A stretch of 40,537 nt of DNA from Clostridia bacterium (GTDB lineage Bacteria; Bacillota; Clostridia; Christensenellales; Borkfalkiaceae), in the NCBI GenBank assembly GCA_017471945.1, contig JAFURH010000054.1, forward strand, positions 1 through 40,537, read 5' to 3'. Both the position numbers and the translations under genes were made by a program. Position 1 is the stretch's first letter. Each line of letters begins with the position of its first letter. This document shows positions 18,135-32,632 of the stretch, one piece after another. The notes beneath the pieces are model-generated. The model made no database searches. It saw only the letters and a list, made by a program, of their open reading frames with translations, and was not told the origin of the DNA.

Positions 18135-18170
18135 AAAATTTACGCGCTCCCGCAAAGGAGCGCGTTTTTT
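18135..18170. terminator. Bidirectional terminator between convergent genes
   Basis: CGCGCTCC (18143-18150), loop CGCAAA, GGAGCGCG (18157-18164), T6 on the plus strand and a T-run on the minus strand. It serves both the AraC gene and the yfhO operon. Confidence 0.9.
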
Positions 18171-20847: not shown

Positions 20848-21776
20848 TTCGTGATATTTCCGTCCTGTTCTATATAAATGGGTCGGTTACGCGTTTCCGT
20901 GTGTATCTTATCCACGTATAACCCAAGAACGCCCGTAAAAAAGATACAAATCCCCACGCCCATTACGATTGCGCAAAGCAAGAAGCTCCAAACGGGCATC
21001 GCCGACAAGGCAAAATGAAGAACGGTTAGCGCGATCAAGCCGAAAAAGGAAAGTCCGCAGAGCAATAGCCCGAACACCGTGGCGATCTGCAACAACGCGG
21101 AAGAAAATGCGACGATCCCTTGCAGAGAGTATTTAAACAGCTTGAAGAACGACCATTTCGTTTCCCCCGCGACCCGCTCCACGTTTTCGTATTCAAACCA
21201 TTTCGTCTTAAACCCGACCCAACCGAAAATGCCTTTTGAAAAGCGGTTTTTCTCGCCTAAACTGAGTACTGCGCTCACGAAACGGCGGCTCATCATTCGA
21301 TAATCCCGCGCCCCGTCAACGAGCTCTACGTCGCTGATCTTGTTCATCAGTTTATAAAATCTTCTGGCAAAAAAAGAACGAATGGGCGGTTCGCCTTTGC
21401 GCGTTACGCGGCGCAGCGCCGCGCAGTCGTATTCTCCGTCTTTTACGGCTTGGTAAAGTTCGGGCAAAAGCGCAGGCGGGTCTTGCAGGTCTGCGTCCAT
21501 CAACACGACGAAATCCCCCGTCGCGTTTTTTAAGCCCGCATAGATAGCCGATTCCTTTCCGAAGTTGCGGGAGAAGGACAAATAACGAACCTTTTCGTCT
21601 TTTTCGGCAAACTCTTTTAAAACTTTCAGCGTTTTATCCTTTGACCCGTCGTCCACGAACACGTATTCAAACGCGCAATCCTGCATTTGAGAAATCGCCT
21701 TTTCCGTTTCCTCGTAGAAAAAAACGAGCGCTTTTTCTTCGTTATAGCACGGCACGACGATACTGATCTTCTTCAT
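20844..21776 (-). CDS. GT2 glycosyltransferase making polyprenyl-phosphate sugar (CsbB/GtrB type)
   Basis: 310 aa. An N-terminal GT-A domain with VVPCYNEE (8-14), VDDGSKDKT, and the metal/nucleotide motif MDADLQDPP (Asp94, Asp96), followed by two C-terminal membrane helices (about 225-250 and 262-290). Such enzymes transfer a sugar from UDP- or GDP-sugar to undecaprenyl phosphate on the inner face of the membrane. It overlaps yfhO and gtrA by 4 bp each (ATGA), so the three genes are translationally coupled. Donor sugar unknown. Confidence 0.92.
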   Translation of the reverse strand: MKKISIVVPCYNEEKALVFFYEETEKAISQMQDCAFEYVFVDDGSKDKTLKVLKEFAEKDEKVRYLSFSRNFGKESAIYAGLKNATGDFVVLMDADLQDPPALLPELYQAVKDGEYDCAALRRVTRKGEPPIRSFFARRFYKLMNKISDVELVDGARDYRMMSRRFVSAVLSLGEKNRFSKGIFGWVGFKTKWFEYENVERVAGETKWSFFKLFKYSLQGIVAFSSALLQIATVFGLLLCGLSFFGLIALTVLHFALSAMPVWSFLLCAIVMGVGICIFFTGVLGLYVDKIHTETRNRPIYIEQDGNITK

Positions 21777-22282
21777 TCGTTTTCTCCTTCTTGCGGTTTG
21801 GGATTTTTGTCCTTAAAAATCAAAAGCTTTCTCGAAATATAGTTATACACGAGCACGATCGCGGTCATTAAGATTTTCACGATCCATTCGTTGACCCCGA
21901 GCAGGGAATTCAAAAGATACATTCCAAGCTCGTGCAAGCCCAGCCCGATCGCAGACAACAGCGCGAACTCCAAAAAGCCGAGCGCGGTTTTGGAATTGCC
22001 CTTACTTATAAACACGAAAAATACGGACAGGAAATAATTTACGATAAGCCCCACGACGAATCCGATTCCCGTACCCGACATATTTGCGGCGAGCGAGGAA
22101 TCCGCTTTCCCGCCGACAAACACGTTATAAAAATTCGGATACAACGAAGGCTCGAAGCAATAGAGCACCACGCCCATCACGAAAAAGTCCACGAGGGTCG
22201 CGATCCCGCCGACGATACAAAAACGGAAAATTTCCCCCAGAACGGGATATTTTGAAAATAGTTCTTTTATCTTTTTGATCAT
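21773..22282 (-). CDS. GtrA-family membrane protein, probable sugar-lipid flippase
   Basis: 169 aa with four membrane helices. The start (FRFCIVGGIATLVDFFVMG) is the GtrA signature; the second half holds FVVGLIVNYFLSVFFVF. GtrA-like proteins are thought to flip polyprenyl-phosphate-linked sugars to the outer face of the membrane. First gene of the gtrA-GT2-yfhO operon, 58 nt from a promoter that contains a G10 tract. Confidence 0.9.
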   Translation of the reverse strand: MIKKIKELFSKYPVLGEIFRFCIVGGIATLVDFFVMGVVLYCFEPSLYPNFYNVFVGGKADSSLAANMSGTGIGFVVGLIVNYFLSVFFVFISKGNSKTALGFLEFALLSAIGLGLHELGMYLLNSLLGVNEWIVKILMTAIVLVYNYISRKLLIFKDKNPKPQEGENE

Positions 22283-22339
22283 TCGTAGGCAAACGCTCCG
22301 TTTTTACTTGCTTTTTCGAAAGATTTCTCATTATACACT

Positions 22340-22370
22340 ATGATAGCACGCACCCCCCCCCCTATGTCAA
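22340..22370 (-). promoter_or_regulatory. Promoter with a homopolymer spacer, gtrA operon
   Basis: Minus strand: perfect TTGACA (22365-22370), 19-nt spacer, TATCAT (22340-22345). Ten of the spacer bases are consecutive G. The spacing is 2 nt over the optimum, so loss of two G would give the ideal 17. A TATAAT at 22330-22335 is too far away to pair with this -35. Confidence 0.7.
22353..22362. repeat. Run of ten C (G on the coding strand) in the promoter spacer
   Basis: The only long G/C homopolymer in the window, placed precisely between -35 and -10 of an envelope glycosylation operon. Such tracts change length by slipped-strand mispairing. Confidence 0.9.
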
Positions 22371-22404
22371 GCGTTTATAAGGCTTTTATTGACATTTTTT
22401 GCAT

Positions 22405-22438
22405 AAAAAATCCCCTCGGAAGGATTCTTCCAAGGGAA
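22405..22438 (-). terminator. Terminator of the deacetylase-aldolase operon
   Basis: Minus strand hairpin TCCCTTGGAAG / CTTCC-G-AGGGGA with loop AATC, followed by TTTTTT (22405-22410). About 40 nt after the aldolase stop; a smaller CGCCG/CGGCG hairpin lies between. Confidence 0.8.
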
Positions 22439-22478
22439 TAAATAAAACGGATTTTTTTCGCCGTTTTTCGGCGCGTTT

Positions 22479-23336
22479 TTAATTGAGTCCCGCAAAGACC
22501 TTGATCGCCTTTTTCACGTCCTCTTTCATCGCCTGCATCGCCGCATATTCCACGTCGTGCAAGTAACTCGTTTTGCCTTCCGCGATCACGGCTTTCGCCG
22601 CCGTGTAGCCCGCTTTCGACATATACGAATAATAGTTGATCTTGCGGATACCGTTTTCGATCGCCTTTTTAAAGCCTTCGTCGGAAACGCCGCTGCCACC
22701 GTGCATAACGAGGGGCAAGCCCGTTGCCGCCGCCACGTTTTTCACTACGTCGAAATCCAATTTCGGCTGCGCCGTGTAGAACCCGTGCGCCGTGCCGAAC
22801 GCGATCGCGAGCGCGTCCACGCCCGTCTTTTCGCAGAAGATCTTCGCCTCGTCGGGGCGGGTGTAGAAATCCTCCGCCTTCATATTCGCGTTCGTTTCTT
22901 CCTTGCTGCCCGCTTCGCCCGTGACGAGCCGTCCGAGCTCCGCTTCCACGCTCACGCCCATCGCGTGAGAAATTTCCGTCACCGATTTGGTCAACGCTTC
23001 GTTTTCCGCATACGGAAGGGCGGACGCGTCGATCATCACAGAAGTAAAGCCGAGGCGGAGTGCCTTATAGATCATATCGAGGGAAGTACCGTGGTCGAGG
23101 TGTACGCACACGGGCACTTTCGCGTTCTTCGCCACCGCGACCATCGCGGGACCGACCATAGAGATATCGTTGTACACGTTATGTACTTCCGCGTGCGCGA
23201 TAATGACGGGCTGGTTGAGTTCTTCCGCCGCCGCCACGACCGCTTGCAAGCTGTCGAAGCCCGTCGCGTTGAACATACCGATCGCCGTTTTTTCCCGTTC
23301 TGCAATTTTTAAAATTTCTTTTAAGTTTACTAACAT
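22479..23336 (-). CDS. Class II fructose/tagatose-bisphosphate aldolase family protein
   Basis: 285 aa, zinc-dependent TIM-barrel aldolase. Visible active site: catalytic Asp81 and zinc ligand His82 in HLDHG, Glu133 in EAELG, zinc ligands His184 (GTAHG) and His212 (MHGGSG). It cleaves a ketose bisphosphate into DHAP and an aldehyde. The family includes FbaA, GatY/KbaY and IolJ; the length and the kinase directly upstream favour a GatY/KbaY-type tagatose- or fructose-1,6-bisphosphate role. Start codon one base after the kinase stop, ribosome site AAAGGAA within the kinase gene. Last gene of a five-gene operon. Confidence 0.92.
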   Translation of the reverse strand: MLVNLKEILKIAEREKTAIGMFNATGFDSLQAVVAAAEELNQPVIIAHAEVHNVYNDISMVGPAMVAVAKNAKVPVCVHLDHGTSLDMIYKALRLGFTSVMIDASALPYAENEALTKSVTEISHAMGVSVEAELGRLVTGEAGSKEETNANMKAEDFYTRPDEAKIFCEKTGVDALAIAFGTAHGFYTAQPKLDFDVVKNVAAATGLPLVMHGGSGVSDEGFKKAIENGIRKINYYSYMSKAGYTAAKAVIAEGKTSYLHDVEYAAMQAMKEDVKKAIKVFAGLN

Positions 23337-23337
23337 A

Positions 23338-24303
23338 TTATATCACTTTCCTTTTGAGATTTTCGCAAATTTTTTGCATTTCCGACATTTCTTTCACGCC
23401 GCTCGTCGCGTCCGCAACGCACAAAGAAGCGGTCGCCGCGATAGAGCCGTAGCGCAAGATCTCCTCGTCCGAAAGCCCTTCGTGAATAGCCACGAGCGAA
23501 CCCGCGCAGAACGCGTCGCCCGCGCCCGTCGTACCTTTGATAAAGCCCGCGGGAAGATCGAACGAAGGCAAAGTCGTGAGCCTTCCTTCGTGATAGCAAA
23601 GCCCGAGTTCGGGCGTGTGAATGATCACCCGTTCTTTTACCCCTTTTTCGCTGAGTTTGCGCGCGATCAAGGGCAAGTTTTCCTTTTTCGGTTCGATCAT
23701 CGTGAGTTTGCCCGCTTCCACTTCGTTGATAATCAAGTTATCCGTGTAGGGAAGGCAGGGCAGAACGATGGAATATCTGTCCGAATTTTCGCTTACGAGG
23801 TCGATCGAGGTGGAAATTCCGCGTTTTTGCGCTTCTTTTAAAATTTTAAGCCCGTCGCCCTCGTCCACTTTTTTGGAAAGCAGGAAATAGCCAAGGTGAA
23901 GCATTTTTACTTCGAGAGAATCGAAATTTATATCGTCCAACCCAAATTCCGCGCCTGCGCCCGCGTAACAAAAGAAGGTACGCTGACCGCCGATCACGCT
24001 CATTACGTCGGTGAAGCTGGTTTTTTCCGATTGGGAAACGACGAAGCCCGAAACGTCCACGCCGTAGCCCGAGAGGACTTTTTTAACGTATTCCCCTTCT
24101 TCGTCCGCGCCGAGCTTGCCGATCGCGAGGACGGGAAGATCGGGCTTGATATTTTTGATATCTGCCGCCGTGTTCGGCACGCAGCCGCCGACGGAGTTTT
24201 TGATCGCGGAGATCTGCGTCAATTCCCCTGCCGACGGATACGCGGAAATTTCATAGATTTTATCGACGAGCGTCGTGCCCGCGACAGCTATGCCTTTTCT
24301 CAT
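23338..24303 (-). CDS. PfkB-family carbohydrate kinase
   Basis: 321 aa from ATG at 24303 (a GTG two codons upstream at 24309 is the alternative; both have weak ribosome sites). Ribokinase/PfkB fold with the N-terminal GG-type signature NSVGGCVPNTAAD and the C-terminal GTTGAGDAFCAG carrying the catalytic Asp263 and anion hole. Phosphorylates a sugar or sugar phosphate with ATP. Between the NagB-like gene and the aldolase, the most economical role is a 1-kinase for fructose-6-P or tagatose-6-P, supplying the aldolase (inferred). Confidence 0.9.
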   Translation of the reverse strand: MRKGIAVAGTTLVDKIYEISAYPSAGELTQISAIKNSVGGCVPNTAADIKNIKPDLPVLAIGKLGADEEGEYVKKVLSGYGVDVSGFVVSQSEKTSFTDVMSVIGGQRTFFCYAGAGAEFGLDDINFDSLEVKMLHLGYFLLSKKVDEGDGLKILKEAQKRGISTSIDLVSENSDRYSIVLPCLPYTDNLIINEVEAGKLTMIEPKKENLPLIARKLSEKGVKERVIIHTPELGLCYHEGRLTTLPSFDLPAGFIKGTTGAGDAFCAGSLVAIHEGLSDEEILRYGSIAATASLCVADATSGVKEMSEMQKICENLKRKVI

Positions 24304-31045: not shown

Positions 31046-32632
31046 TCATTCCGTATCGGCGACCGACCGTTGCGGCTCTTTTTTCTTTTTTAAATAAATC
31101 TTATACCCTATAAACCCAAGCACGGCGAGCAATACGATCACGACGAGCACGACGATCGCAAGCGTATACCGCTCGGCGGCAAGCGCGCTCCCCGAAAGGG
31201 AGAACGGCAAGATCGACGGAATACGCGCCACGGACGTGACGAGCAGGAACATAAACGGATTGATCGAAGTCAGCCCCACCACGTAGGTGAGCATATCTTT
31301 GGGTACGAACGGCAAAAGATAGATCAAAAACAGTACCGCATAAGCGTTTCCGTTTTCGCGAAAAACTTTCAAAACGCCGAGTTTTTCCACCGAAACTACC
31401 TTTTCCACTAGTTTTTTGCCAAATTTTTTGACGAGCAATATCTCGATCAGCGACCCGACCGCGTTGCCGAGCACGCAAAGCGCCGTGCCCTTCACCACCC
31501 CGTAGGCATACCCCGAAGCCACTTCGAGCGCGGCGGACGGGATCACCTTGATCATCGTCTGTAAAACCCGCAAGGCGACGAAAACCACTTCGTCGAACCC
31601 GCCGAACCCGTCGAGCCAATTTTGAAAACGGTCGGGATTCGTGATCACGCCGAGCATCGCGTCGCCGAACACGATCGCGCACACGACGAACGCGACGATA
31701 GCGATCGTCCAGAACAAAAAGGTAATCCGTTGTTTTTTCGTGCCCTTTACGATATGCCAGATCGCGACGAGTTGTTTGCCGAGTTTCTTCTTCGGCTTTG
31801 CGCCTTTTTCTTCGATTTCGGGATAAAATTCGTCGAGTTCCCCTTTATACCCGTCGAGCCACGGCTTGTACTTGCCGTTATAATGAATGATCGCGGTCTT
31901 GTTTTCGATCTCCTCTTTCGGGAAGGTCTTGCGGTTTTTTTTGCGCGTTCTTTCGTCGAGATTCCATATCAGCTCGTCGATATAAAGAGTCTTGTCCGCA
32001 AAAAGGATATTGGCGAGATCTTGATCGCCCATCCAAAGCTTACGGATATGCTTCTTCGTCGCCTCGACGATCCCTTCGACGGTCAGCGTTTCGCGCATCT
32101 TTTTAACGTCCATCAGCATTACGCCCGAATTGATATACCGTTGCCCTTTTTTCAACCCCAAACGAGTGCAATTCATTATTTCCACGAGTCCGCGGGTATG
32201 ATTCGCCGCCGCGATAATATTTTCGCCGAGATCTAGATCGTAAAGCGGTGCGAGCGGCTTTCTTATCAAAATATCGGGGTCGAGATACAGGCAACGTTCC
32301 ACTTCTTTCGGCAGAAACTCAAACGCCATCAGCCGATAAAAAGATTCCTCCGGCAACCGTTCGATCACGGGCGTATCTTTAAACCAGCTTTCCGTAATAT
32401 GCACGTTATGTACGCGCAGGAAAGAAAAAGGCGCGATCGCGGCTTGCAAAAAGTCGAAATCCTTTTCGTCCAGCCCCGAATGCGCGACGAATATTTCCGT
32501 TTCCCGTCCGTTTTGCGTTTCGCCGAGCGAAACGAGCATTATTTTTAACGGAAAAAGGTATTTTTTATCGATCGTAACGAGAATATTCATTTTTTCGTGC
32601 GTCGATTGAACGGATTTTACATTTTTTTCCAT
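31046..32632 (-). CDS. GT8 glycosyltransferase fused to a VTT/DedA-like membrane domain
   Basis: 528 aa. Residues about 15-262 are a family 8 glycosyltransferase: VTIDKKYLFPLK, DxD-type YLDPDILIRKPL (Asp118, Asp120), YINSGVMLMD (167-175), GDQDLANIL and HYNGKYKPW. A basic linker (275-305) leads to about six membrane segments (303-512) with the SNARE-associated/VTT pattern: GNAVGSLIEILLVKKFG, LLPFVPKDMLTYVVG and ARIPSILPFSLSG. Such membrane domains belong to lipid-handling proteins (DedA, TVP38/TMEM64). The fusion is one continuous frame, no shift seen. The first ATG (32632) is only 9 nt from a TATAAT, so the mRNA may be nearly leaderless; Met15 is the usual GT8 start but has no ribosome site. 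Probably makes and handles a glycolipid. Confidence 0.88.
   Translation of the reverse strand: MEKNVKSVQSTHEKMNILVTIDKKYLFPLKIMLVSLGETQNGRETEIFVAHSGLDEKDFDFLQAAIAPFSFLRVHNVHITESWFKDTPVIERLPEESFYRLMAFEFLPKEVERCLYLDPDILIRKPLAPLYDLDLGENIIAAANHTRGLVEIMNCTRLGLKKGQRYINSGVMLMDVKKMRETLTVEGIVEATKKHIRKLWMGDQDLANILFADKTLYIDELIWNLDERTRKKNRKTFPKEEIENKTAIIHYNGKYKPWLDGYKGELDEFYPEIEEKGAKPKKKLGKQLVAIWHIVKGTKKQRITFLFWTIAIVAFVVCAIVFGDAMLGVITNPDRFQNWLDGFGGFDEVVFVALRVLQTMIKVIPSAALEVASGYAYGVVKGTALCVLGNAVGSLIEILLVKKFGKKLVEKVVSVEKLGVLKVFRENGNAYAVLFLIYLLPFVPKDMLTYVVGLTSINPFMFLLVTSVARIPSILPFSLSGSALAAERYTLAIVVLVVIVLLAVLGFIGYKIYLKKKKEPQRSVADTE

Follow-up and report, generated by a model that had tools for sequence, protein, structure and literature searches.

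The minus-strand promoter at positions 22340 to 22370 of the window, the whole 40,537-nt stretch of DNA analysed here, probably drives a surface glycosylation operon in a phase-variable manner; the probability of this reading was put at roughly 0.77. We infer that its run of ten Gs, located between the -35 and -10 boxes, would gain or lose Gs at replication within the population and would thus act as a slipped-strand contingency element. Such a gain or loss would change the distance between the two boxes and could thereby raise, lower or abolish transcription of gtrA, a GT2 glycosyltransferase gene and yfhO, resulting in cells with and without one envelope sugar decoration. Similar loci in the same genome would switch independently of one another. 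These bacteria probably switch surfaces by small copying slips.

Direct reading of the sequence confirmed the promoter elements described in the sequence-only reading, namely TTGACA and TATCAT on the minus strand, 19 nt apart and separated by ten consecutive Gs (Table 1). From 22370 to 22340, the minus strand reads TTGACA-TA-GGGGGGGGGG-TGCGTGC-TATCAT, in which GGGGGGGGGG represents the ten Gs, and the spacer is composed of 2 + 10 + 7 nt; TGC occupies the extended -10 position. Such a long homopolymer, flanked by clear -35 and -10 boxes, is the arrangement of a porA-type promoter. Pairing of TTGACA with the TATAAT further downstream was rejected, since it would require a 29-nt spacer.

Table 1. 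Positions of the promoter elements, operon genes and terminator-like hairpins in the window, and of three lipoproteins behind poly-G promoters elsewhere in the same genome.
Feature	Position	Strand	Remarks
-35 box TTGACA	22365..22370	-	Sequence read directly
G10 tract in promoter spacer	22353..22362	-	Spacer 22346-22364, 19 nt
-10 box TATCAT	22340..22345	-	Preceded by extended -10 TGC at 22348-22346
Second -10-like TATAAT	22330..22335	-	Probably unpaired with TTGACA
gtrA, GtrA-family membrane protein, putative lipid-sugar flippase, 169 aa	21773..22282	-	PF04138, 2.7e-16
GT2 glycosyltransferase, 310 aa	20844..21776	-	PF00535, 9.1e-35
YfhO membrane protein, putative GT-C transferase, 892 aa	18169..20847	-	PF09586, 3e-95, 320.8 bits
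Terminator-like hairpin, 13 pairs, after upstream aldolase gene	22410..22439	-	Consensus scan only
Terminator-like hairpin after operon	18142..18165	-	Consensus scan only
BspA-type LRR and Listeria-Bacteroides-repeat lipoproteins behind poly-G promoters	L013:326-1963, L014:2055-4019, L021:2082-3764		Same genome as the window

Pfam searches confirmed the earlier assignment of the three downstream genes to the GtrA, GT2 and YfhO families (PF04138, PF00535 and PF09586, respectively). gtrA starts 57 nt downstream of the -10 box, and 4 nt are shared both between gtrA and the GT2 gene and between the GT2 gene and yfhO. A crude hydropathy count yielded three helices for GtrA, within the three to four expected of such flippases. 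By hydropathy, two membrane helices were found at the C-terminus of the GT2 protein, which, together with its PF00535 domain, matches a membrane-anchored GT-A transferase, while the 11 helices counted in YfhO, combined with PF09586, suggested a multi-spanning protein of the GT-C type. The best NCBIfam matches of the operon proteins were Pgf proteins, all below the curated cut-offs: the GT2 protein scored 318.6 bits against a cut-off of 500 for the PgfS equivalog (NF047588), and YfhO scored 99.8 against 1400 and 84.6 against 1500 bits for the PgfM1 and PgfM2 equivalogs. By homology, gtrA-GT2-yfhO is interpreted as a putative envelope-glycosylation operon, whose acceptor would be of the teichoic-acid or surface-protein type. 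Elsewhere in the window (31046-32632, minus strand), a protein is encoded in which a GT8 glycosyltransferase domain precedes a VTT membrane domain.

The terminator-like hairpin between the aldolase gene and the promoter implies that the operon would depend on the poly-G promoter. Dependence on this promoter is at issue in a different reading of the same DNA, according to which the tract is unstable but without consequence: slippage occurs, while the operon uses another promoter or tolerates the change. A perfect TATAAT downstream of TATCAT fits such a reading, as does the location of half of the genome's long runs outside promoter spacers. However, a consensus scan of positions 21500-23500 identified a single minus-strand promoter-like site (23098-23071), which falls within the aldolase gene, on the upstream side of the hairpin (22439-22410), and enrichment of tracts in spacers before envelope genes would stay unexplained. 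Instability without consequence was therefore considered quite improbable.

The genome from which the window derives (2.04 Mb in 94 contigs, 79% complete; hereafter the window genome) contains 16 runs of nine or more Gs or Cs. Five of these, four G and one C, fall within the spacers of strict TTGACA/TATAAT promoters, as compared to an expected number of 0.017 based on the share of the genome covered by such spacers (p 5e-12). The window site, with its TATCAT, was not counted among these five. Once it was added, together with a site on C86 that has a poor -10 box and a site on C47 with relaxed boxes (TTGACT/TAAAAT) that was read by eye, promoter-like spacers held 8 of the 16 runs. The remaining eight lie outside promoter spacers, some of them upstream of exported-protein genes. 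At L018:2082-2090 and L009:2017-2026, long runs were seen by eye upstream of a promoter-like pair instead of in its spacer, and another mode of tract control is possible at these two sites.

Relatives of the window bacterium showed the same architecture. Of 61 genomes, 11 contained the pattern TTGACA-N-G8+-TATNNT, with 28 sites in total; 10 of these 11, the window genome among them, belong to the 37 genomes of the genus. In the order, 63 strict sites were found in 31 of 297 genomes, again with the window genome, which contributed four of the 63; the 61-genome and 297-genome sets have this genome and G054 in common. By this pattern, most genomes of the genus and order were without any site. The reversed poly-G pattern, used as a control, gave 0 matches in every set searched, including those of 61, 297, 28, 7 and 41 genomes. 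Enrichment, reversed control and spacer dispersion (see below) together placed the association between tract and promoter beyond chance. An assembly or sequencing artefact, or a chance meeting of a G run and promoter boxes, was already disfavoured and is very improbable in view of this recurrence, the empty controls and the enrichment in the window genome, even though metagenome assemblies can misjudge homopolymer length and at least one G10 run, of which the window itself has only one, appeared in 3 of 100 dinucleotide shuffles of the window. That few examples from Clostridia are known, as remarked in the sequence-only reading, may reflect a lack of description, given that strict sites occur in 31 of the 297 genomes examined from the order.

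A GtrA match was present in 39 of the 61 genomes, and 30 GtrA loci, the window included, were compared. None of the 29 others had a G or C run of 7 nt or more, with less than 240 nt of upstream sequence at two of them. The idea that tract and GtrA gene are conserved together was therefore rejected (1 of 30 loci, the window itself) and, as far as these 30 loci show, the G10 tract is specific to the lineage of the window.

Genes located behind poly-G promoters were predominantly of envelope type. All eight spacer tracts of the window genome precede such genes which, by eye, comprised six lipoproteins, one exported protein and one glycosylation operon. A home-made rule based on hydropathy and lipobox, applied with one code to all sets, classified the first genes behind the six strict sites of the window genome as lipoprotein-like (four), signal- or anchor-bearing (one) and multi-spanning (one). 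Under this rule, the first gene was of envelope type (lipoprotein-like, signal-bearing or multi-spanning) at 6 of 6 sites in the window genome, 17 of 18 in the genus and 44 of 56 in the order, as compared to 13 of 39 ordinary-promoter controls from the window genome, a control count that likely includes false positives (Fisher, p 7.5e-7 for window genome and genus combined, p 1.5e-5 for the order). These controls were 40 ordinary-promoter sites with spacers of 16-18 nt, taken in listed order, one of which lacked an open reading frame. The set for the order contained 58 distinct sites, to which the other sites of G054 had been added and from which G163:C16, G163:C39 and G140 were left out; two of the 58 lacked an open reading frame. 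In a Pfam search of seven target proteins, BspA-type leucine-rich repeats were found in two lipoproteins and Listeria-Bacteroides repeats in one, while four had no match. By position and homology, the tract in the window would control a surface or envelope determinant.

Spacer lengths separated long tracts from short ones. Among ordinary consensus promoters of the window genome (100 listed of 111 matches, less four poly-G/C sites), the spacer was 17 nt in 75 of 96 and 16-18 nt in 87 of 96. Tract lengths in 41 genomes of the genus were bimodal, with 37 sites of 5-7 Gs and 21 sites of at least 8 Gs, 18 of the latter having 10-12 Gs. Spacers of 16-18 nt were found at 35 of the 37 short-tract sites and at 5 of the 21 long-tract sites (Fisher, p 3e-8), which indicated that, in the genus, short G runs leave the spacing unmoved and long ones shift it. 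Spacers at long-tract sites of the genus ranged from 15 to 25 nt with a mode of 19 nt, the spacing of the window promoter, which was shared by 6 of the 21. The effect was milder in the order, with 27 of 59 sites at 16-18 nt and a mode of 16, in a search whose G8 cut-off hides shorter tracts. Two of 24 genus sites, in G005 and at G000:C86, were left out of the spacer counts for their -10 boxes (TATTTT or TATGTT).

A stable poly-G could also serve as a fixed structural spacer in a class of envelope promoters, for example through A-like DNA geometry or through use of an extended -10 that permits a longer spacer, without any switching. Consistent with such a role, TGN precedes the -10 box at 16 of 22 genus sites, although in only 17 of 54 distinct strings from the order (taken from 59 sites outside the window genome, omitting repeats and G264, which has a spacer of 30). 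Strand bias points in the same direction: the C version of the pattern occurred at 3 sites in 3 of the 61 genomes that hold 28 G sites, and this strong preference for G over C is not explained by slippage alone. A fixed distance, however, would force compensation between tract and flank, and none was seen in 22 genus sites, in which the two lengths were uncorrelated (rho 0.07, p 0.74). The wide range of long-tract spacers likewise argues against it, as do the one-unit differences between some duplicated promoters (see below). A structural spacer without switching is, on balance, unlikely, even when the families of constant tract length described below are taken into account.

Comparison of similar promoters yielded both differences and constancy in tract length, as read from assemblies that may carry errors. 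In G128, two paralogous lipoprotein promoters with nearly identical flanks have 11 and 12 Gs, and duplicated promoters in G339, also with nearly identical flanks, have 10 and 11. In Candidatus Ancillula, the flank AGC|TGC carries 10, 11, 12, 13 and 14 Gs. The 36 sites in G355 (Bacilli MAG Lapin-016__bin44; L064, L101, L160) comprised 31 G8, 3 G9, 1 G7 and 1 G10; G8 with the common flank corresponds to a spacer of 15 and the single G10 to one of 17, a pattern suggestive of multigene families in which the 17-nt spacing is rare. In contrast, the tract was exactly G8 at 18 of the 20 sites with at least 5 Gs in G357, each of four promoters in G138 with the flank AAC|TGA had G9, and no difference was seen within the duplicated pairs of G033 and locus L136, whose members have G10. 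As a guess, tracts of 8-9 Gs may slip rarely. The phase-variable promoter that the sequence-only reading had proposed was supported in part, by indirect evidence: its architecture, the glycosylation-type operon, recurrence before envelope genes, spacers other than 17 nt in long tracts and one-unit differences in some relatives. The length-constant families speak against it.

The window genome has a MutS1 match of 947 bits, and MutS1 scored above the cut-off in 50 of the 61 relatives. Loss of mismatch repair as a cause of tract instability was therefore not supported for the window genome, and contingency loci would here operate in the presence of this repair gene. One observation speaks against an outright rejection: among the 11 site-bearing genomes, three (G005, G012 and G054; 80, 73 and 97% complete) had no MutS1 match; among the 50 site-free genomes, this was the case for three (G015, G023 and G032).

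A scan of named species genomes returned at least 118 stretches, and the matches listed included many uncultured Clostridia and Bacilli from sets named Lapin (rabbit, by name) or after goat, sheep and deer gut, as well as Candidatus Ancillula and Faecalibacterium. As the collection is very large, some of these stretches, for instance from Chloroflexi, are surely chance matches. A phage origin of poly-G promoters was rejected, since only 5 stretches were found in 2.9 million viral contigs. Judged by its relatives, the window bacterium is probably gut-dwelling. Candidatus Ancillula sp. Gsp477_bin129 (L055, L080, L094, L103, L115, L163) has 25 promoters with a poly-G spacer, alike in their flanks and with tracts of 9-15 Gs; no description combining Ancillula with phase variation was found in the open-licence literature. 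We lean towards the view that uncultured gut Clostridia have, in poly-G spacer promoters, a main phase-variation system that has so far gone undescribed, with parallel use in gut Bacilli and Candidatus Ancillula. A genome would have anything from a single such promoter to more than 30, with the Gs on the non-template strand and a location mostly before lipoproteins and other envelope genes, and a population would hold many combinations of surface states. If true, the signature of TTGACA, a long G run, TATAAT and a spacer other than 17 nt would allow candidate phase-variable surface genes to be recognised in genome sequences, and counts of tract lengths in available metagenome reads could reveal surface states favoured by the host environment.

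Discussions of phase variation in gut bacteria mostly concern DNA inversion. Examples of inversion in the accessible part of a review are from Clostridioides difficile and Bacteroides. Titles and abstract starts of the open-licence literature yielded no description of promoter-spacer G tracts in Clostridia, which is a weak form of absence. For the window, the proposed promoter predicts that a known mechanism switches a glycosylation-type operon in a lineage without any description of such switching in that literature.

The opc promoter of Neisseria meningitidis reportedly contains a poly-C tract, whereas G tracts dominate here and the window genome has one C-tract promoter. The tract of Streptococcus pyogenes Spy1336/R28 is said to consist of Ts. 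Homopolymer size variation in the opc promoter is named in the title of a reference in PMC5084427. For Spy1336/R28, an example from the Bacillota that concerns one locus, the accessible part of PMC7098570 ties a one-nucleotide indel in the homopolymeric tract to transcript level. In Bifidobacterium breve UCC2003, a Gram-positive gut commensal, as the bacterium studied here is presumed to be, G10/G11 slippage in pilus G-tracts was measured by deep sequencing, according to the accessible part of PMC9187656. The tracts studied there lie within genes and exert their effect through frameshifting, in contrast to the promoter spacer considered here, and other G-tracts within promoter spacer sequences are mentioned in passing.

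All three families of the window operon, here encoded by adjacent genes, also make up the CsbB/GtcA/YfhO systems, which, as described in the accessible part of PMC8035078, combine a membrane-linked GT-A transferase, a GtrA-type flippase and a multi-spanning GT-C transferase. In B. subtilis, expression of these systems is under alternative sigma factors, and that part of the article mentions no promoter tract, whereas a poly-G promoter precedes the operon in the window.

The closest likeness is to the porA promoter of N. meningitidis, in which a poly-G tract is likewise located between the -35 and -10 boxes before a surface determinant. According to the accessible part of PMC3639595, porA expression is high with 11G, about twofold lower with 10G and 13-fold lower with 9G. 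The sequence-only reading had derived an ideal length of G8 from the 17-nt rule. This ideal length is unproven, and the high-expression 11G state of porA and the genus mode of 19 nt suggest that the rule does not tell which tract length turns a poly-G promoter ON. porA concerns one outer-membrane porin of a Proteobacterium and was demonstrated experimentally, whereas the Clostridia promoters, with many loci per genome, are known from sequence alone. The slipped-strand promoter mechanism of the porA type is already known; what was not expected is that some uncultured Clostridia have so many promoters of this kind, and that these are so consistently linked with envelope genes.
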